Positions 48,970 to 64,000 of a stretch of 64,000 bases of DNA are shown here, piece after piece. Numbering within the stretch: position 1 is the first letter of the stretch; each line of letters starts with the position of its first letter. The notes beneath the pieces are model-generated. The model made no database searches and was not told the DNA's origin. It was given only the letters and a program-made list of their open reading frames with translations. Source of the stretch: Fidelibacterota bacterium (GTDB lineage: Bacteria > Fidelibacterota > Marinisomatia > Marinisomatales > TCS55); assembly GCA_014239435.1 (NCBI GenBank), contig JAAZYX010000033.1, positions 150,871 to 214,870 of the forward strand, written 5' to 3'. The position numbers and the translations under genes are program-made.

Positions 48970-50382
48970 TTATCTACCCTTGCCCGAAAGCATAACCCAA
49001 GCGGTATTCAACAGAATCTTAATGTCTAGATTCAGAGTTAAACTTTCAATATAGAAAAAATCGTATTTTAGTTTCTCCCGGACGTCTTCAATCCGCTGAT
49101 CGTAAGGATTCTTTATTTGAGCCCACCCTGTAATACCCGGTCGAACTGAATGCCGGCGGTAATAAAATGGATACTCCTGAATCAGCCGTTCAATGATAGA
49201 TGGTCTTTCGGGCCGTGGACCTATTAAACTCATTTCTCCCTTTATAACATTGATAAGTTGAGGTATTTCGTCCAGCCGAAAACGGCGTAGCCAACGGCCT
49301 ATACGTGTAATGCGGTTGTCATCTTCAGATGCCCATACAGGACCGGTATCCGTTTCTGCATCTTGCACCATTGACCGGAATTTATAAATAGTAAATTGTT
49401 TATGTTTTTGGCCTACCCGTAGTTGTTTATAAAGGACAGATCCCTTTGAATCAAGCCTGATTGCCAGACTTATAACTGCCCAAAATGGAAGGAATAAAAT
49501 AAAGGCTGGAATGGCTATAATAAGGTCTAACAGACGTTTCCCATGGCGATTATATAGTGTATTGAGTTCGGGATTAACCTGAATTAACGGAAGACCATAC
49601 AGTTGCTGTGTCCGGGCCATTCCGCTAATAGCTTCATAAAGATCCGGTACAATTTTAATAGCCGTCGGCGCACCGTTCGCCTGCGTTAATAGCGACATTA
49701 AACGGGTATGGTCGGACCGTTGCGGCGCCAAAACCACATGGGCAATTTGATTCTCAATAATGATATTTTTCAAATCAGCTTCCGTCCCAAGAATATTTCC
49801 ATATTCAAATTGGTTTTCATCCTCATCTAAAATCTGAACAAATCCTACCAAATCATATCCGAAATCAGGATGCTTTTGAACATCTTTTGCAACTTTGTTT
49901 CCTCTTGGGTTGCAGCCGACAATAATCATTTTTTCAAGCCCAATTCCTTTGCGAATCATGGCTTTTTGAAGTGATCTCGCAGCAAACCTCACGATACTGA
50001 AACAGAGAATAAACAATAACCAGTAATTAAGAACAATATTGGGTTCATAGGGAAGAGGCATAATTTTTACCGCATTCAGGAAAATAAGAAGCACAATGCA
50101 GGAAAATGAGGCTACCGTTGCCTGTTGAATTTCACCAAATCGCGATATATCTGAGGTTGCTTTGTACAGACCAAGGGTAAAAAACAAACAAGCCCAAATT
50201 ACTGTTATTACGATGAAATTTTGACCTACATGAATAATGTGTAAATCTTGTCCCATATGAGAAGCCAGTAATACCAAGTAAAAGGCCAACGCTCCTGCGA
50301 AGGTATCCGATATAAACAATGCCCAGGAAATCACCCATTTGGGGATCCTAATCCGCAGAGTGTGTGCAAATTCAGATGTCAT
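48970..50382 (-). CDS. Exopolysaccharide sugar-phosphate transferase (polyprenyl glycosylphosphotransferase)
   Basis: A 470-residue initiating enzyme of the WbaP/CpsE type. It has four to five N-terminal membrane helices (about 15-125), a central CoA-binding-like domain (KMIIVGCNPRGNKVAKDVQ), then a membrane anchor. The bacterial sugar transferase domain follows: KRLLDLIIAIPAFILFLP, YKQLRVGQKHKQFTIYKFRSM, RRFRLDEIPQLINVIKGEMSLIGPRPERP and RPGITGWAQI. It transfers a hexose-1-phosphate to undecaprenyl phosphate to begin the repeat unit. The sugar (glucose or galactose) cannot be read. It has its own promoter and a long leader. Confidence 0.93.
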   Translation of the reverse strand: MTSEFAHTLRIRIPKWVISWALFISDTFAGALAFYLVLLASHMGQDLHIIHVGQNFIVITVIWACLFFTLGLYKATSDISRFGEIQQATVASFSCIVLLIFLNAVKIMPLPYEPNIVLNYWLLFILCFSIVRFAARSLQKAMIRKGIGLEKMIIVGCNPRGNKVAKDVQKHPDFGYDLVGFVQILDEDENQFEYGNILGTEADLKNIIIENQIAHVVLAPQRSDHTRLMSLLTQANGAPTAIKIVPDLYEAISGMARTQQLYGLPLIQVNPELNTLYNRHGKRLLDLIIAIPAFILFLPFWAVISLAIRLDSKGSVLYKQLRVGQKHKQFTIYKFRSMVQDAETDTGPVWASEDDNRITRIGRWLRRFRLDEIPQLINVIKGEMSLIGPRPERPSIIERLIQEYPFYYRRHSVRPGITGWAQIKNPYDQRIEDVREKLKYDFFYIESLTLNLDIKILLNTAWVMLSGKGR

Positions 50383-50404
50383 GATTGAAATTACTGTATT
50401 GGAA

Positions 50405-50467
50405 TCATGCTACCGGGTGGCTACGGTCACACTGGACTATTGGGGAAACGCTATGCAGACTATCCAT
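50405..50467 (-). CDS. Possible 20-residue leader peptide
   Basis: An ATG at 50467, preceded by AGGAG at 7-nt spacing, opens a 20-codon frame (MDSLHSVSPIVQCDRSHPVA). It lies entirely in the leader of the sugar transferase gene and ends 22 bp before it. The good ribosome-binding site is the only support. A chance ORF is quite possible. Confidence 0.3.
   Translation of the reverse strand: MDSLHSVSPIVQCDRSHPVA
50406..50434 (-). promoter_or_regulatory. ops/JUMPstart-like leader element
   Basis: On the minus strand the leader reads CAGTG, then CCGTAGCC, then CCCGGTAGCATG. The last segment matches the RfaH recruitment (ops) sequence GGCGGTAGCGTG at 9 of 12 positions, and JUMPstart elements also contain two GGTAGC-type boxes after CAGTG. 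It is upstream of a capsule initiation gene, where such elements occur. Spacing between the boxes is shorter than in JUMPstart, and no NusG paralogue is in view. Confidence 0.35.
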
Positions 50468-50537
50468 GTTATGGCTCCTGTTTAACTGGAAAAACTGTTA
50501 GCGTTTAATTTCGATAAATCTCCTTGAGGGTTGCTCA

Positions 50538-50566
50538 AAGTTATGATTTGATCTTCGTTTTATCAA
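50538..50566 (-). promoter_or_regulatory. Candidate promoter for the sugar-phosphate transferase
   Basis: On the minus strand, TTGATA (50561-50566) and TAACTT followed by TG (50538-50543) are separated by 17 bp. The predicted start near 50531 would give a leader of about 150 nt before the 50382 start codon. TAACTTTG also resembles the TAnnTTTG -7 element described for Bacteroidota promoters. The -35 overlaps the region just before the epimerase 3' end. Confidence 0.5.
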
Positions 50567-50575
50567 GAGATTCTC

Positions 50576-56994: not shown

Positions 56995-58347
56995 TTAAGA
57001 GATAATATCTCTGTAGTTGATTTTCGCTATTAATAAAATAAAATTGATAAAAATCATTACTAAGAATGTGCTTATTACCAGTAATGTTCTCCGTGGTTTA
57101 AATCTGTCGATTGGAGTTTTAGCTTCGTCCAAAATCTGAATGGTTGGCGTATCTTGGGCTTCTTTAATTTTTGCTTCTTCATATTGTTGAGTCAAAAAAG
57201 TAAAGAGAGTATTTTGGATTTCCACTTCTCTTTTCAACCGAAGCATTTGGACACCCAATTCGGGAACATCTGCAAAGATAGGAAACAATTGCTGCGAACC
57301 ATCCGATGATTTTATTTTGGTTCCATAATCCATTTCTTTTAGCTGTTTTTGTAATTCCTCTGTTTCCTTTTCCAATGCTTCAATATCAGGATGATCAGGA
57401 CTGAGCATTGTATTCATTACACTCAATCTTACTTCATTCGAAAGAATCCCTCCCTTGATGGATGCTGCAGCATCAATGGCATATTTTGTCTGCTCTGTGA
57501 GTTCAATCAAACCATGCTGGATTTGGAATAATTTTAAATTATCCTCAGCTTTTTTTAATTCTTCTATATTTAATTTATATCTTTCCTCAATAAACATTCT
57601 TTGAAAGGAAGCCTTTTCCGTCTTCAAATTTTTATTGACAAAATCGAGATTTTCTATAAAATAATTTGTCATATCCGAAGATAATTTCTTCACAAATTCT
57701 TCTTCATTGTCAGGATGAAACCATGCCGTTTTTGTGAGTACTGATACTCTAATGGTTCCTTCATCCTCAACTTCAAAGATGACATTATCTGATAATTCTA
57801 TAATAGCTTTTTCAATATTATCGGATTCATAAAATTCAATCAAATTAAATTTCTCAATTACATTTTCTAAAACGGTCCTGCTTTTAAGAATCGCGATAAA
57901 ACTGAGGGATGCATCATCAGTTTTTGTAAACATATTTGCCATAGGTAAATTAGAAAGAGCACCTAAAATCCCCATTCCCGAATCCGTTTTAGGCGGCATC
58001 AAAACAGCAGAAGATTTATATGTTTTTGGCATGATATATGAGGCAGCGGCAATCAAAATTGTCACCGCAAATACATTGTTCAAAATCCATTTGCGTGATT
58101 GCCAAAACAATCTGCTATAATCTATGAATTTCAATTCATTATTGACAGAAATTGTCGGCTCTTCATTCTGATTATTGGATCCCGGAATCATATTGAGCCT
58201 TTTTAATTCACCTATTCTGTTTCTAAGTGTTTTTTCGGACAGGCCAATTGTTTTAGCGAAACGTTCTCTCGCTTTTGTATCCGTAAGTATTTCGGGATGC
58301 TTTTGAATCAGCTCAAGTATTTTTTGTTCGTGATCTGTAAGTGTCAT
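56995..58347 (-). CDS. Wzz-family chain-length determinant with N-terminal winged-helix domain
   Basis: A 450-residue protein. Residues about 3-54 form a winged helix-turn-helix: LTDHEQKILELIQKHPEI, then AKTIGLSEKTLRNRIGELKR, in which SEKTLRNRI is the recognition helix. After a hydrophilic linker comes the Wzz domain: a first membrane helix (about 88-106), PKTYKSSAVLMPPKT, a periplasmic coiled-coil body (about 230-340), and QILDEAKTPIDRFKPRRTLLV leading to a second helix near 415-445. The start is fixed by tight spacing, 6 bp after the wza stop. No kinase domain follows. An HTH on a Wzz protein is unusual. It may sense or control gene expression, or only bind a partner. Confidence 0.85.
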   Translation of the reverse strand: MTLTDHEQKILELIQKHPEILTDTKARERFAKTIGLSEKTLRNRIGELKRLNMIPGSNNQNEEPTISVNNELKFIDYSRLFWQSRKWILNNVFAVTILIAAASYIMPKTYKSSAVLMPPKTDSGMGILGALSNLPMANMFTKTDDASLSFIAILKSRTVLENVIEKFNLIEFYESDNIEKAIIELSDNVIFEVEDEGTIRVSVLTKTAWFHPDNEEEFVKKLSSDMTNYFIENLDFVNKNLKTEKASFQRMFIEERYKLNIEELKKAEDNLKLFQIQHGLIELTEQTKYAIDAAASIKGGILSNEVRLSVMNTMLSPDHPDIEALEKETEELQKQLKEMDYGTKIKSSDGSQQLFPIFADVPELGVQMLRLKREVEIQNTLFTFLTQQYEEAKIKEAQDTPTIQILDEAKTPIDRFKPRRTLLVISTFLVMIFINFILLIAKINYRDIIS

Positions 58348-58353
58348 AGTGAG

Positions 58354-59379
58354 TTAACGGACCGACGCTTGGTACGCTAAATAAATGGTCAAAAATGCAG
58401 AAATAATTTGGGTGGCGCTTGTTTGTCCAAAAAGCCGATATTGAAATGTAGCCGGAACTTCGATAATATCGCCCGGAAAAACCGGCTCGTTTAAGGCTCT
58501 CGGTACAACGGTTCCGTCTTTCCTAATGACTCTCGCTCCCGTCAAACTACCAGATTCTTTCGGACCACCTCGAAGCGCTATGTAATCTCGAACTTTGTAC
58601 CCGGGTATATATCGGAAACCTCCGGGAACTTGAACGAAACCGATTACAAGTACTTGGCTCAAATTATAATCTGATATCCGGCCGTTTTGTTTGTCAAAAT
58701 CCTTATCAAAAGGAACATGAATAACATCTCCTTCCCGGAGTACCGGATTTTGTTTCAAGTTCCCAGTAAGTAAAAATTCGCCCGGTCGATATTCGTGAGA
58801 GTCCTTTCCTCTGTTAATGGTAATCAAGTTCGATGTAGCATATTTTTGAACACCGCCGGCAATTTCCACAGCATCCAGCATACGAGATACCCCATTTACT
58901 TCCACAAAACCGGGGTTATGAACCGCTCCCGAAATCTGAACTTTGAATCGTTTTATATTCTCCAGAGAAACAAACACCTTTGAATTGGGGAAAGCATTCT
59001 GCTTGATATAAGATTTGATTCTTTTAATCGAATTTTGAAGTGTTTTTCCATGAAGAGACAATGAACCAACTGCCGGTATCAAAATGCTGCCGGAAGGAAG
59101 TATCCTAAGAGAATAACTCATAGATTCAGATGAAATGATATTAATTCCAATTACATCACCCGGTCCAAGAATATAGGTTTCAGAATTAATGGTTTTTTCT
59201 AGTGGAACGTAGTCTTGTTGAAGCGATCCATCGAGTTGATCATTTTGATTCATCTCTTGCTGCCACCCGTATTCTTTCGGATCAATCGTATCCAGATAAT
59301 TAGATTTTTCCTGCGCCTTTGCAGGAAAAACGATCAGAAAGGAGGCCGCCAAAATGTATTTATGGAATTGAGTGGTCAT
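58354..59379 (-). CDS. Polysaccharide export protein (Wza-like, SLBB domains)
   Basis: A 341-residue secreted protein with signal peptide MTTQFHKYILAASFLIVFPAKAQ. The Poly_export domain opens at about residue 69 (YILGPGDVIGINIISSESM) and continues through GSILIPAVGSLSLHGKTL. SLBB-type blocks follow (FKVQISGAVHNPGFVEV and LVIGFVQVPGGFRYIPGY) with REGDVIHVP. There is a terminal hydrophobic segment. No lipobox is seen, unlike E. coli Wza, so it may insert through the C-terminal helix. Forms the outer-membrane exit channel. Joined to ugd by ATGA. Confidence 0.9.
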   Translation of the reverse strand: MTTQFHKYILAASFLIVFPAKAQEKSNYLDTIDPKEYGWQQEMNQNDQLDGSLQQDYVPLEKTINSETYILGPGDVIGINIISSESMSYSLRILPSGSILIPAVGSLSLHGKTLQNSIKRIKSYIKQNAFPNSKVFVSLENIKRFKVQISGAVHNPGFVEVNGVSRMLDAVEIAGGVQKYATSNLITINRGKDSHEYRPGEFLLTGNLKQNPVLREGDVIHVPFDKDFDKQNGRISDYNLSQVLVIGFVQVPGGFRYIPGYKVRDYIALRGGPKESGSLTGARVIRKDGTVVPRALNEPVFPGDIIEVPATFQYRLFGQTSATQIISAFLTIYLAYQASVR

Positions 59380-60698
59380 GAATCGGTCCTTCGTTTCCGC
59401 CCAACATTGTCATAAACAATACCCGTATCCTCTAGTTCAGATGTATTTAATATATTTCTTGTGTCGAGGAAAATGGGTGTTTTCATGAGGGACTTTATGC
59501 GGGGAATATCCATACTCCGAAATTCATTCCAATCGGTCATAATAACAGCAGCGTCGGCATCTTTTACTGCATCGTACACCGAATTTTTATAGGATATATT
59601 TGAAAAGAATTTTGTCATATTCTCATTAGACACTGGATCGTAAGCCTGGACCGATGCGCTTTCATTCAATAATGCTGTTATCATCGAGATGGAAGGAGAT
59701 TCCCGAACATCATCAGTCCCGGGTTTAAAGCTGAGCCCAAGAACTGCGATCGTTTTTCCTTCAAATGAGCCGTCAAGTAAAATTCTCAGTTTGTCTACCA
59801 TTCTAGAATGCTGGTGACTATTAGCATCAATTGCTCCTTGTATAGTCTTCAGCGGAACACCGGCTGCTTCAGCCTGAGACGCCAGCGCTTTGGTATCTTT
59901 CGGAAAACAAGAACCCCCATACCCCGGACCCGGGTGTAAAAATTTTGGGCTGATTCTTCCATCCAATCCCATTGCCTGTGCGACTTTAAATACATCTGCG
60001 CCAACTTCTTCGCACACATTTGCAATTTCATTGATATAACTAATCTTTAGCGCCAAAAATGCATTGCTGGCATACTTAATCATTTCGGCGGTTTCTATAT
60101 TGGTATGAATAACGGGAGTTTCATTTACATACAATGGATGATACACATCCTTCATGAAGTCAAATGCCTTTTGGGATTCTGCTCCAATCACTACTCTGTC
60201 CGGATGAGTAAAATCTCGGACGGCAGCGCCTTCTCTCAAAAATTCCGGGTTGGATACATAATCAAATGAAACCGATGCATCTGAATTTTCTTTAATCGCT
60301 TCAATAACTTTTCGCCCTGTGCCGATTGGCACTGTGCTTTTTGTACAAATGACTTTATACCCATTTAACGATAACCCAATCGTTTCCGCTACTTTCAGTA
60401 CGGCTGAAATATCCGCATTGCCATTTTCATCCTGAGGAGTGCCAACAGCGATAAACACAACATCCGCTGCCTCAATGGCATTTGGCACATCGCTTGAAAA
60501 GGATAGCCTTTTTGCTACAACATTTCGCTTAACCAAAGATTCCAATCCTTGCTCATAAATTGGAATATCACCATTTTTTAATGAAGCAATTTTGGATTCG
60601 TCAATATCCACGCACGATACGGCATGTCCAAAATCGGAAATCCCTGCACCGCTTACCAATCCTACATATCCGGTACCAATAACAGTAATATTTTTCAT
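59376..60698 (-). CDS. ugd: UDP-glucose 6-dehydrogenase
   Basis: A 440-residue NAD-dependent enzyme producing UDP-glucuronate. Motifs: VIGTGYVGLVSGAGISDFGH at the N-terminus, VAVGTPQDENG, CTKSTVPIGTG, the catalytic GPGYGGSCFPKDTKAL with its Cys near residue 259, and LGLSFKPGTDDVRESPS. Normal length. As the first gene of the capsule cluster it supplies uronic acid, making an acidic polysaccharide likely. It is 34 bp from the VWA gene, so transcription may begin upstream of it. Confidence 0.97.
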   Translation of the reverse strand: MKNITVIGTGYVGLVSGAGISDFGHAVSCVDIDESKIASLKNGDIPIYEQGLESLVKRNVVAKRLSFSSDVPNAIEAADVVFIAVGTPQDENGNADISAVLKVAETIGLSLNGYKVICTKSTVPIGTGRKVIEAIKENSDASVSFDYVSNPEFLREGAAVRDFTHPDRVVIGAESQKAFDFMKDVYHPLYVNETPVIHTNIETAEMIKYASNAFLALKISYINEIANVCEEVGADVFKVAQAMGLDGRISPKFLHPGPGYGGSCFPKDTKALASQAEAAGVPLKTIQGAIDANSHQHSRMVDKLRILLDGSFEGKTIAVLGLSFKPGTDDVRESPSISMITALLNESASVQAYDPVSNENMTKFFSNISYKNSVYDAVKDADAAVIMTDWNEFRSMDIPRIKSLMKTPIFLDTRNILNTSELEDTGIVYDNVGRKRRTDS

Positions 60699-60732
60699 CT
60701 ATTTCGTATAATCCCTATTGAATTCATTTGAA

Positions 60733-62820
60733 TTAAGGAAGACCTGTAAATCGTCTTATGCTCCATTCAAAACACAGCAAAAACAGTAATGCGGCAATCA
60801 GCCAGGGGTTTTGACCGAATTTGATGCTTGCCTTATTTGTCACATTTTTTGTTTGATTCATTACAAGATCGGAAACATCTGCCCGGGATGCCCATGGAAT
60901 ATACTTTCCGCCGGATTCTTTTGCCAGATTCTTCAGCAAATCCCTATTTACAAAAACCCGGTTCAATTCAATTTGACTTTCTTTTACGATAAATTCTCCT
61001 CGGTAACTTGATGTATTTTTCCCATGTTCTACTCCAATTTGGTAATAATACTTTCCGGGGCTGGATGCCCATATATTTCCTTCCCATCGGGAACGGCCTA
61101 AATTATAGTGAAGTTCCGCAGAATTCATTTTAATATCATTTTTTATAACGCTAATGAATGCCCGGGCGACGGCTTGGTTCTCAATTCCTTTTTGAGTTCC
61201 CGTAATCTGGATTTCCTCTCCTTGCTGATATGAATCCTTATTTAATCGAAAATACAATTCATTTTCAGACCCCGACTTCAGTAGCCAGTTGAACATGCCA
61301 TGCCAAAATTTTTCGAGGAATTGACTGTTGTCAGATTCGTTAAGAGAATAATGAAGTTTATACATATCAGAAGATCCAAAGACAAAACTTCGCAATCCAT
61401 TTGCATCGGTTCGGATACTAATGGGACTTGCTAATGCAGTGTTGTGTAAAGCCAAAATTTCGCTTTCAGGTTTTGTCGGAGTAATAAAAAAATCAGTTAA
61501 ACTTAAAGGTGGAAAGTTGGACTGAGCGCTCCCCGTAGAATTTAAATACGGTTCAATATTGACATTTTCTGTAAAGTACCAATCAGTTGGTGTATTGCCA
61601 GAATCTATTGGGTTGCCTGCAACATGAAAAAATGGAAATAGCGATTCAGCTGATTTTTTGCTCACATTCGGACCGAAAGACCATGCCAATGATGATTGGT
61701 CTTTAAAAATCTTTTTCCCTAGAATTCTTTGCAATGATTTTGGAAGAGGTGCGGCAGGGAAATTTTCAAAAATAATTAAGTCATAAGATGATTTCCAAAA
61801 AAGATCTAAAGATGGATAAAACACATCTTCATTACGCTGAACAAAATGATCCACTTTAATTCGAGGATAAGATTTGACATATTTTTTCAACAAAGATGTG
61901 TGATAATTCGGCGATCCAGTAATTAACGCTACAGGATATCGGTCTTTTAATATATTTATCTCAAATTGCTGCCTATTATTCTCAATGTTGATTTCTTCAC
62001 TCGCAGAGGACACTTTTACCTCGTACTGCCGTGTACCGATTTGCTTGGGTCGGAATTGAAAAGAAATTTCTTTCTCTGAGCCACCGCCGAGGATTCGGAC
62101 ACGCTTTGAACCCAGTAACTTCGAACCGTGATACAAAGAAACATTAACAGGCTTATCCACCTTGCCTGCTGCCTGAACAATCACATCCGCGTTTACATCC
62201 TCTCCTTTAATGGCTACCGTCGGAGCATCGAGAGACTTGACAGCAATGTCGACTAACGGGACAGAATCCCCTACTGCAACGATATGAATCGGAACTGAAC
62301 TTTTTTCAAATGAGGCTGGATGTTTTCCCTGGGTTAACTGTCCATCTGTTATAATGATTGCGCCCGCTAGACTTTCCTGATTGGTTAAGATATGATTCAT
62401 AACAGCACCTAAGTCAGTCGCGGATCCTTCTGCAGTAGCAGAAAGATTTGAGACATCTTGTATATCTCTTGAAAATTGCAGAAAAGTAACATGATCACTT
62501 TTTGCCTTTATCTCATCCTCTATGGATACCACACCGTTTGCAAAGGATTGAATGGAAAGGGACTGATGGTACCTCATGCTCACAGAATTATCCAGATAGA
62601 TATTCCATTCAAGCTGCAATTCTGATTTCTGCTTCCAGTGAAGAACCGGCTGAAATAATAAAAGAACCAACATAATCAAACTCAGAACTCTCAATCCTAC
62701 CAGAATATGAAATTGAGGATGCCGTCGGAGTTTATGAAATCCAAGAAATAATGAAAGTGATACACCGATAACTGCAACCCAGAAAAATGGATCTAAGCCT
62801 TTTAGAATTTCAATTTGCAA
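60733..62820 (-). CDS. VWA-domain membrane protein of unknown function
   Basis: A 695-residue protein. Two N-terminal membrane helices (about 14-28 and 41-59) precede a von Willebrand A domain with an MIDAS-type DNSVSM and a downstream ITDGQLTQG. CARDB/Ig-like beta domains follow (about 190-290). A domain of the glutamine-amidotransferase-like type may lie at about 295-420 (PVALITGSPNYHT, LIIFENFPAAPLP). A final beta region and C-terminal helix follow. This resembles the large VWA membrane proteins of Bacteroidota/Planctomycetota Bat-like operons, with function unknown. It begins 3 bp after tsaD's stop. Confidence 0.65.
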   Translation of the reverse strand: MQIEILKGLDPFFWVAVIGVSLSLFLGFHKLRRHPQFHILVGLRVLSLIMLVLLLFQPVLHWKQKSELQLEWNIYLDNSVSMRYHQSLSIQSFANGVVSIEDEIKAKSDHVTFLQFSRDIQDVSNLSATAEGSATDLGAVMNHILTNQESLAGAIIITDGQLTQGKHPASFEKSSVPIHIVAVGDSVPLVDIAVKSLDAPTVAIKGEDVNADVIVQAAGKVDKPVNVSLYHGSKLLGSKRVRILGGGSEKEISFQFRPKQIGTRQYEVKVSSASEEINIENNRQQFEINILKDRYPVALITGSPNYHTSLLKKYVKSYPRIKVDHFVQRNEDVFYPSLDLFWKSSYDLIIFENFPAAPLPKSLQRILGKKIFKDQSSLAWSFGPNVSKKSAESLFPFFHVAGNPIDSGNTPTDWYFTENVNIEPYLNSTGSAQSNFPPLSLTDFFITPTKPESEILALHNTALASPISIRTDANGLRSFVFGSSDMYKLHYSLNESDNSQFLEKFWHGMFNWLLKSGSENELYFRLNKDSYQQGEEIQITGTQKGIENQAVARAFISVIKNDIKMNSAELHYNLGRSRWEGNIWASSPGKYYYQIGVEHGKNTSSYRGEFIVKESQIELNRVFVNRDLLKNLAKESGGKYIPWASRADVSDLVMNQTKNVTNKASIKFGQNPWLIAALLFLLCFEWSIRRFTGLP

Positions 62821-62823
62821 GGT

Positions 62824-63819
62824 TTAGGCTAACGTAAGGTTTGGGAATATGGGAAAATCGATGGCTGCCCGCTTTCCCATCACCAAGTATTTTTCACCTA
62901 AAAATGCGATCATGGCAGCATTGTCCGTACATAAAGGTAAATCAGGATACAAAATACGGCAATCAGCCAGCGTATCTTTAACCATTGCTCTCAGCTTTTT
63001 ATTTGCTGCAACTCCTCCGGCAATGACTAAAGTCTGTACTCCAGTTTCTGTTACTGCTAATTCACATTTTGAGATTAACGCCTCAATGATAGCTTTTTGA
63101 TAACTTGCAGCAATATCATTTTGGGATAGCGTATTCGTTTTTGAATTATCTTCGGATTGCATCCTATACAAGAGAGACGTTTTTAATCCGCTGAAGCTGA
63201 ATTCAATTGTATTCGAATGGAAAAAAGCCTTTGGAAATGAAATTGAATTCTCATCGCCTGTTTTGGCGCAAGATTCGATCGCTGGACCTCCGGGATAACT
63301 GAGCCCTAAAATCCGAGCACCCTTATCAAACGCTTCCCCAGCGGCATCATCTCGAGTTTCGCCTAACAATGTGTATTCTTCCAATGCTTTCACATGCCAA
63401 AGTTGTGTATGTCCGCCTGAAACCAGAAGACAAACGAACGGATATTCCAACGCCGGATACGCAAGAAAGTTCGCGTAGATATGAGCTTCAAGATGGTTTA
63501 CTCCTATGATGGGAACATCTAATCCCTGTGAAAGACCTTTTGCAAAACAAGAGCCGGCTAGTAATGCGCCTGCCAAACCCGGTCCTTGCGTAACGGCAAT
63601 TCCATCAATATCTGATAAGGTCATTTTTGATTCGTTCATCGTTTCATGAACTAACTGATTCAATAAACGCTCATGCTCTCGAGACGACAACTCAGGAACA
63701 ACACCTCCATATTCTCTGTGAATGATATGGGAACTGACATGGGAAGATAAAATTGACCCATCTCTGCATACGGCTGCGGCAGTTTCATCACACGATGTTT
63801 CAATACCTAAAACGATCAT
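62824..63819 (-). CDS. tsaD: tRNA N6-adenosine threonylcarbamoyltransferase
   Basis: A 331-residue enzyme that attaches threonylcarbamoyl to A37 of ANN-decoding tRNAs. I use the ATG at 63819 (MIVLGIETSCDETAAAV), where family alignments begin, forming an ATGA overlap with the upstream gene. GVNHLEAHIYANFL carries the metal histidines, and VSGGHTQLW and VIAGGVAANKKLR are the nucleotide motifs. An upstream in-frame start would add 18 residues inside the next gene. Confidence 0.97.
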   Translation of the reverse strand: MIVLGIETSCDETAAAVCRDGSILSSHVSSHIIHREYGGVVPELSSREHERLLNQLVHETMNESKMTLSDIDGIAVTQGPGLAGALLAGSCFAKGLSQGLDVPIIGVNHLEAHIYANFLAYPALEYPFVCLLVSGGHTQLWHVKALEEYTLLGETRDDAAGEAFDKGARILGLSYPGGPAIESCAKTGDENSISFPKAFFHSNTIEFSFSGLKTSLLYRMQSEDNSKTNTLSQNDIAASYQKAIIEALISKCELAVTETGVQTLVIAGGVAANKKLRAMVKDTLADCRILYPDLPLCTDNAAMIAFLGEKYLVMGKRAAIDFPIFPNLTLA

Positions 63820-64000
63820 TGACTTTTGCGGGTAACAACCAGTTCTATGTTTCGAGGCGATAAATCCATCCACTCAATAACATGATCCGGAACACGAACC
63901 TCAGGTTCGTACCATGTTTGCCCCGGGTTCCACCGTTTGTTAAAATCTATCGAAACCTGAATGTCTTTAGGCTGGATATTCGCAATATAATCCGCACCGC
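63816..64000 (-). CDS. YbbR/CdaR-like protein, C-terminal fragment (cut by window edge)
   Basis: The final 60 codons of a gene entering from the right edge. The protein shows IANIQPKDIQVSIDFNKRW, then EPEVRVPDHVIEWMDLSPRN, then IELVVTRKSQ. The repeated pattern of Val/Pro followed by a short strand and 'P-x-x-I-x-V-x-I' is like YbbR repeats. YbbR (CdaR) proteins often regulate the diadenylate cyclase CdaA. The fragment is too short to be sure. Its stop overlaps the tsaD start. Confidence 0.5.
   Translation of the reverse strand, partial: GADYIANIQPKDIQVSIDFNKRWNPGQTWYEPEVRVPDHVIEWMDLSPRNIELVVTRKSQ

Follow-up and report, generated by a model that had tools for sequence, protein, structure and literature searches.

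A Wzz-type polysaccharide co-polymerase with an N-terminal helix-turn-helix domain and a rare palindrome in its capsule loci

Capsule locus and domain architecture of HTH-Wzz

The window analysed here, a stretch of 64,000 nucleotides from a Fidelibacterota genome, carries on its minus strand a capsule or exopolysaccharide cluster. The cluster comprises a 695-residue open reading frame (60733..62820), ugd of the UDP-glucose/GDP-mannose dehydrogenase family (59376..60698), a wza-like gene for an export protein with Poly_export and SLBB domains (58354..59379), the gene for the protein described here, which adjoins wza and which we call HTH-Wzz (56995..58347), genes for a Wzy-type polymerase/ligase, a flippase, glycosyltransferases and an epimerase, and an initiating polyprenyl-phosphate sugar transferase gene of the Bac_transf type (48970..50382) that is preceded by a conserved leader element (50441..50528, also on the minus strand). 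Six of the eleven CCCGGG hexamers of the window fall within 58600-63922, a segment of 5.3 kb that extends from wza to just past a tsaD-like open reading frame.

HTH-Wzz is a polysaccharide co-polymerase of the Wzz/GNVR type with an N-terminal helix-turn-helix (HTH) domain. Its open reading frame of 450 amino acids is intact and begins with an ATG 6 nt past the wza stop codon. Both Pfam families of such proteins are matched above their cut-offs, Wzz (PF02706) over residues 71-166 with 40.9 bits (cut-off 25.5) and GNVR (PF13807) over residues 367-442 with 39.7 bits (cut-off 27.7). In the full-length model the HTH domain (residues 3-54; 58186..58341), which includes the recognition helix (residues 38-50; 58198..58236), is followed by a disordered linker of variable sequence (residues 57-72, pLDDT below 50; 58132..58179), a first membrane helix (residues 85-105; 58033..58095), the periplasmic polysaccharide co-polymerase (PCP) domain (residues 106-418; 57094..58032) and a second membrane helix (residues 419-449; 57001..57093). 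The complete Wzz domain with two membrane helices that a reading of the sequence alone had described is thus borne out, and the modelled topology would, as that reading held, leave the HTH domain in the cytoplasm. That the domain is translated, which had been argued from the gene spacing, is now corroborated by many other genomes, in which the wza stop codon and the HTH start codon share 1 or 4 nt. The protein ends after the second helix and carries no C-terminal BY-kinase, and no match to the BY-kinase family (TIGR01007) exceeds the family cut-off anywhere in the genome. A second Wzz-like gene of the same genome (G000:C3:17192-18058; L002, L003) lacks the HTH domain.

The fold of the N-terminal domain is weakly marked in sequence. 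With the first 72 residues alone several HTH models score just under their Pfam cut-offs (HTH_24, 21.0 against 21.9 bits), and an HTH_AsnC-type model reaches 15.4 bits against a cut-off of 27. An AlphaFold2 model of residues 1-65, built on an alignment of nine sequences, predicts three helices (residues 5-16, 24-33 and 38-50) and an additional short one (residues 18-21), with a pLDDT of about 91 across residues 11-50. The top matches of this model in the PDB, as found by Foldseek, are the HTH domains of AsnC/Lrp proteins (TMq 0.63-0.66, with rmsd values of 1.7-1.9 for the better-superposed ones); the best of them, 2cg4 and 1i1g, have E-values of 0.05-0.09, and no match falls under 0.001, which is expected for a domain of only about 50 residues. 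The sequence-only reading had assigned residues 3-54 to a winged helix. A helix-turn-helix is indeed modelled there, but the model contains no strands that could form the β-hairpin of a wing, and since conservation also stops after residue 54, the term helix-turn-helix fits the domain better than winged helix. The RAM domain of AsnC/Lrp proteins is absent too, the HTH being followed by the linker and then by the Wzz part. HTH-Wzz, which is in addition membrane-bound, is therefore not an AsnC/Lrp protein, and the likeness of its isolated domain to their HTH domains, its best structural match, appears from the models to be a resemblance of fold.

The protein shares with the known Wzz/PCP co-polymerases (Wzz, KpsE/BexC/CtrB and Wzc) the two membrane helices, the periplasmic Wzz domain, the GNVR region, the wza neighbour and the location in a capsule cluster. 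Different from these it adds a cytoplasmic N-terminal HTH domain and has no C-terminal BY-kinase; lacking the kinase, it is not a Wzc. At the same time the model combines a DNA-binding-type domain on the cytoplasmic side with a membrane helix in one chain, which is the architecture of transmembrane regulators. Like ToxR, CadC and TcpP (PMC10269533), HTH-Wzz has an N-terminal cytoplasmic DNA-binding-type domain, a membrane anchor and a periplasmic part, but here the periplasmic part is a co-polymerase held by two membrane helices and a subunit of an assembly machine rather than a dedicated sensor. By sequence HTH-Wzz thus answers to the definition of a Wzz/PCP protein and by architecture to that of a transmembrane transcription regulator, joining the two in one protein. 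Wzz goes unmentioned in the main text of a survey of transmembrane regulators (PMC10269533), and in the open literature, which excludes most subscription journals, we found no description of a Wzz protein with an HTH domain.

A conserved family within the phylum

Neomarinimicrobiota (Marinimicrobia or SAR406) are now named Fidelibacterota. A search with a profile of the HTH domain was positive in 61 of 245 genomes of this phylum, with about one copy in each and, even at an E-value of 10, a single copy in the genome studied here. One marginal hit and the fragments from contig ends aside, the domain was always found as the N-terminus of a Wzz protein. HTH-Wzz is hence a family and not a one-off, and the suggestion that the same architecture be sought in other genomes proved fruitful. 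In almost every locus wza is the upstream neighbour of HTH-Wzz, and the two reading frames frequently overlap. The phylum also contains Wzz relatives without the HTH domain, whose match to HTH-Wzz begins only around residue 70. Outside the phylum, HTH-Wzz was encountered in one KSB1 metagenome-assembled genome, at a contig end, and in one Scalindua metagenome-assembled genome, both on short contigs that are probably binning contamination; the remaining hits in KSB1 and Planctomycetota are HTH proteins of the ordinary kind, without the fusion. On short contigs assigned to Scalindua rubra and KSB1 (L009, L006 and L016) the Wzz genes are Marinimicrobia-like; L009 has HTH-Wzz itself, and so has L016, where the end of the contig truncates it.

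The HTH domain is the better conserved part of the protein, with a mean pairwise identity of 0.57 as compared to 0.34 for the Wzz part. Fourteen columns are invariant in an alignment of 54 sequences; ten of these lie within the 55 residues of the HTH domain, and six of the ten, E38, K39, T40, R42, N43 and R44 (EKT-RNR), belong to the recognition helix and are identical in 54 of 54 homologues. A conserved loss of polar residues from this helix, which would have spoken against DNA binding, was looked for and the opposite was seen. Regulators of the AsnC/Lrp type vary among themselves at the recognition-helix positions taken by E38, K39, R42 and N43, and the invariance of these four in HTH-Wzz points to one shared target.

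A rare palindrome in HTH-Wzz loci

A GC-rich palindrome was first noticed in the AT-rich DNA upstream of wza in family f13. In 25 of 27 genera, where 0.87 would be expected, this 8-mer, GCCCGGGC, is found upstream of HTH-Wzz, and it ranks first among all 8-mers. Counted by locus, it is present in 49 of the 53 HTH-Wzz loci that have enough upstream DNA, as opposed to 9 of 35 Wzz loci of the phylum without the HTH (Fisher P of 7e-11 by locus and 2e-5 by genus, with relatedness ignored); the HTH-less loci show some enrichment as well (6 of 19 groups against 1.3 expected). No copy occurs in the downstream half of HTH-Wzz loci, which holds the variable genes, so that the sites are confined to the conserved upstream side. 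Genus g12 has only ACCCGGGC, and in genus g2 the recognition helix is unchanged, yet GCCCGGGC is missing from the locus and from 20 kb upstream.

The palindrome is rare genome-wide. Exactly one copy exists in the 1.735-Mb assembly studied here, and it lies in the window at 61160..61167, inside the 695-residue open reading frame; from there it is 462 bp to the ugd start codon and 2.8 kb to HTH-Wzz, both downstream. Two regions had been proposed from the sequence as targets of DNA binding: the one upstream of ugd contains this only genomic copy, whereas the gap at 50380-50570 has no such palindrome, though the leader element lies there. Among 12 genomes with HTH-Wzz the site is present in 1 to 42 copies, each genome having at least one in its HTH-Wzz locus; at each genome's own site density and with a 6-kb target, the chance of a locus copy in 12 of 12 genomes would be about 3e-22 if the loci were independent, a figure that is only a guide because they are related. 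General abundance of GCCCGGGC as the cause of its presence at these loci is rejected by the same counts. One genome has five sites in a stretch of 13 kb that lies away from its HTH-Wzz locus (G081:C1:8581-21790).

Most copies of the palindrome are found in coding sequence. In coding DNA of loci with the HTH, GCCCGGGC occurs 56 times against 2.6 expected from synonymous codon resampling, a 21-fold excess, and 17 more sites lie outside genes; the coding DNA of HTH-less loci contains 10 against 3.9 expected. The position of the site shifts between lineages and uses all three codon frames, its places being the EPGL motif (GAG CCC GGG CTN) and the VARA motif of ugd, the GPGD motif and the signal peptide of wza, the 695-residue open reading frame and noncoding DNA. 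In the window it forms the codons GCC CGG GCA of an Ala-Arg-Ala stretch of the 695-residue open reading frame, which is the place of GCCCGGGC in this genus. Three motifs of ugd and wza that both kinds of loci share carry the palindrome 33 times in loci with the HTH and 0 of 27 times in loci without it. A pure coding constraint is rejected by this difference together with the synonymous resampling; by these comparisons selection acts on the site as DNA. The palindrome clearly exemplifies how a regulatory-type site can be retained by selection within coding sequence even as it moves from place to place.

In family f13 a noncoding site usually has a promoter-like TTTG/TTAGG element 8-9 bp downstream and the leader element 60-61 bp away. 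A third half-site, GGGC, is located 7 or 8 bp upstream of GCCCGGGC in this family; it is seen at promoters as well as in the signal-peptide codons of genera g34 and g35.

Proposed function and alternative readings

Feedback from capsule or exopolysaccharide synthesis to gene expression is usually credited to separate regulators or to tyrosine kinases. The conserved HTH domain on a Wzz protein and the rare palindrome in its locus suggest that the machine that builds the cell coat may directly control its own genes. Our preferred reading, to which we assign a probability of roughly 0.6, is that HTH-Wzz combines two roles, that of a polysaccharide co-polymerase and that of an autoregulator which is anchored in the membrane and binds DNA specifically at its own locus. 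The broader proposition, that a subunit of an export machine is itself the DNA-binding regulator or the membrane tether of its own cluster by way of a genome-rare, position-shifting palindrome, and thereby represents a new class of regulator, has in our view about an even chance of being correct. The earlier suggestion of a membrane-tethered regulator that links export to transcription is strongly, if indirectly, supported by the invariant recognition helix and the rare palindrome in the locus, with DNA binding as a prediction from these features.

Assembly of the Wzz/PCP part with polymerase and exporter is established for the PCP family. By analogy, the periplasmic part of HTH-Wzz would assemble with the capsule polymerase and the exporter, and as each subunit would carry one small cytoplasmic HTH domain on a flexible linker, the oligomer would present several HTH heads. 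GGGC/GCCC half-sites may be what these heads read. Their conserved target, upstream of wza-HTHwzz in the same locus, would be GCCCGGGC or, in some lineages, GGGC-N3/4-GCCCGGGC, and through binding, expression of the operon could be made to depend on whether the export complex is assembled or active. Where the site of the one family is linked to a promoter and lies beside a -33-like element, binding might activate RNA polymerase or occlude it; where other families have the site inside genes, it might act as a transcription roadblock or tether the locus to the membrane. We infer the pairing of this HTH domain with GCCCGGGC from their co-occurrence, which is mostly within one order, and another regulator of that order could thus own the palindrome. 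Moreover, a contiguous palindrome of 8 bp is short for two HTH domains side by side. Genus g2, which retains the helix but has no site near its locus, the deviating sequence of genus g12, the enrichment in HTH-less loci, the Pfam HTH scores just under cut-off and the predicted lack of a wing also speak against this reading. A capsule complex that communicates with the chromosome has a precedent in Streptococcus pneumoniae, where the Wzz-like/BY-kinase complex CpsC/CpsD contacts the chromosome-bound protein ParB; CpsC/D itself does not bind DNA and the contact runs through ParB (PMC4574921), whereas the HTH-Wzz co-polymerase bears an HTH domain of its own. Here a chain-length co-polymerase appears to have the DNA-reading domain built in, and this in uncultured marine bacteria that are widespread and nearly devoid of genetics. 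Since the predicted site is a defined sequence of 8 bp, the idea is testable with purified protein and short DNA.

But could the HTH domain serve another purpose? HTH folds act as protein-binding modules in some membrane proteins, and the domain might be an adaptor that uses the invariant helix to dock onto a conserved partner of capsule synthesis in the cytoplasm, such as the sugar transferase, the polymerase or a substitute for the kinase, with GCCCGGGC belonging to another factor. The sequence-only reading had likewise considered a repurposed protein-binding module in place of the missing kinase. With no BY-kinase over the cut-off in the genome the usual slot of the cytoplasmic partner is indeed vacant, and genus g2 retains the recognition helix without the DNA site. 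However, the conserved positions of the domain are those used in base recognition, a palindrome restricted to the locus tracks the HTH in spite of its positional turnover, and HTH-Wzz loci were not seen to share any other DNA-binding protein as a constant member. We therefore favour the adaptor less and regard it as rather unlikely. The confinement of GCCCGGGC to the conserved side of the locus would also suit a site of recombination or other DNA processing that is unrelated to the HTH and flags the conserved edge of the variable capsule cassette. Against this, GCCCGGGC in f13 stands at a constant distance from a promoter-like element, an extra half-site accompanies it in near-fixed register, its genome-wide rarity goes far beyond that of a Chi-like site, and capsule loci without the HTH have it much less often, all of which renders this explanation improbable. 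That the domain is a functionless evolutionary remnant, as the related Wzz proteins without it might suggest, is hardly credible for a region under purifying selection that is more conserved than the Wzz part and holds ten invariant residues in 54 proteins.

The HTH domain might, finally, bind RNA or a nascent transcript instead of a DNA operator, for instance the leader element of the capsule operons, which is conserved and covarying, belongs to the same regulon and in the window stands upstream of the sugar transferase gene. This seems highly improbable to us, as the leader element is found in 25 of 245 genomes, nearly all of family f13, while the HTH domain is found in 61 and is better tracked by the palindrome. 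The element comprises about 94 nt with the core AAGGA-N4/5-TATCGA...CAGTTT and a closing stem that covaries in f13, and it directly precedes wza in most genomes of that family and the initiating sugar transferase gene in others. The copy in the window was detected with an E-value of 4e-4 in a search of 105 kb and of 0.007 genome-wide. A scan of the window and of the leader loci against Rfam gave nothing at gathering level, the weak hits by E-value being due to chance, and ownership of the element by an antiterminator of the RfaH/UpxY type is rejected by the presence of a single NusG in the genome. The leader element is provisionally a candidate new cis-regulatory RNA of capsule operons, provisionally because its structure was built on only 11 related sequences and because the closing stem is not clearly shared by distant members, the window copy included. 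Genome G118 (L142, L131) possesses two copies, one before wza and one before a sugar transferase gene, which suggests that a capsule regulon is marked out by this element.
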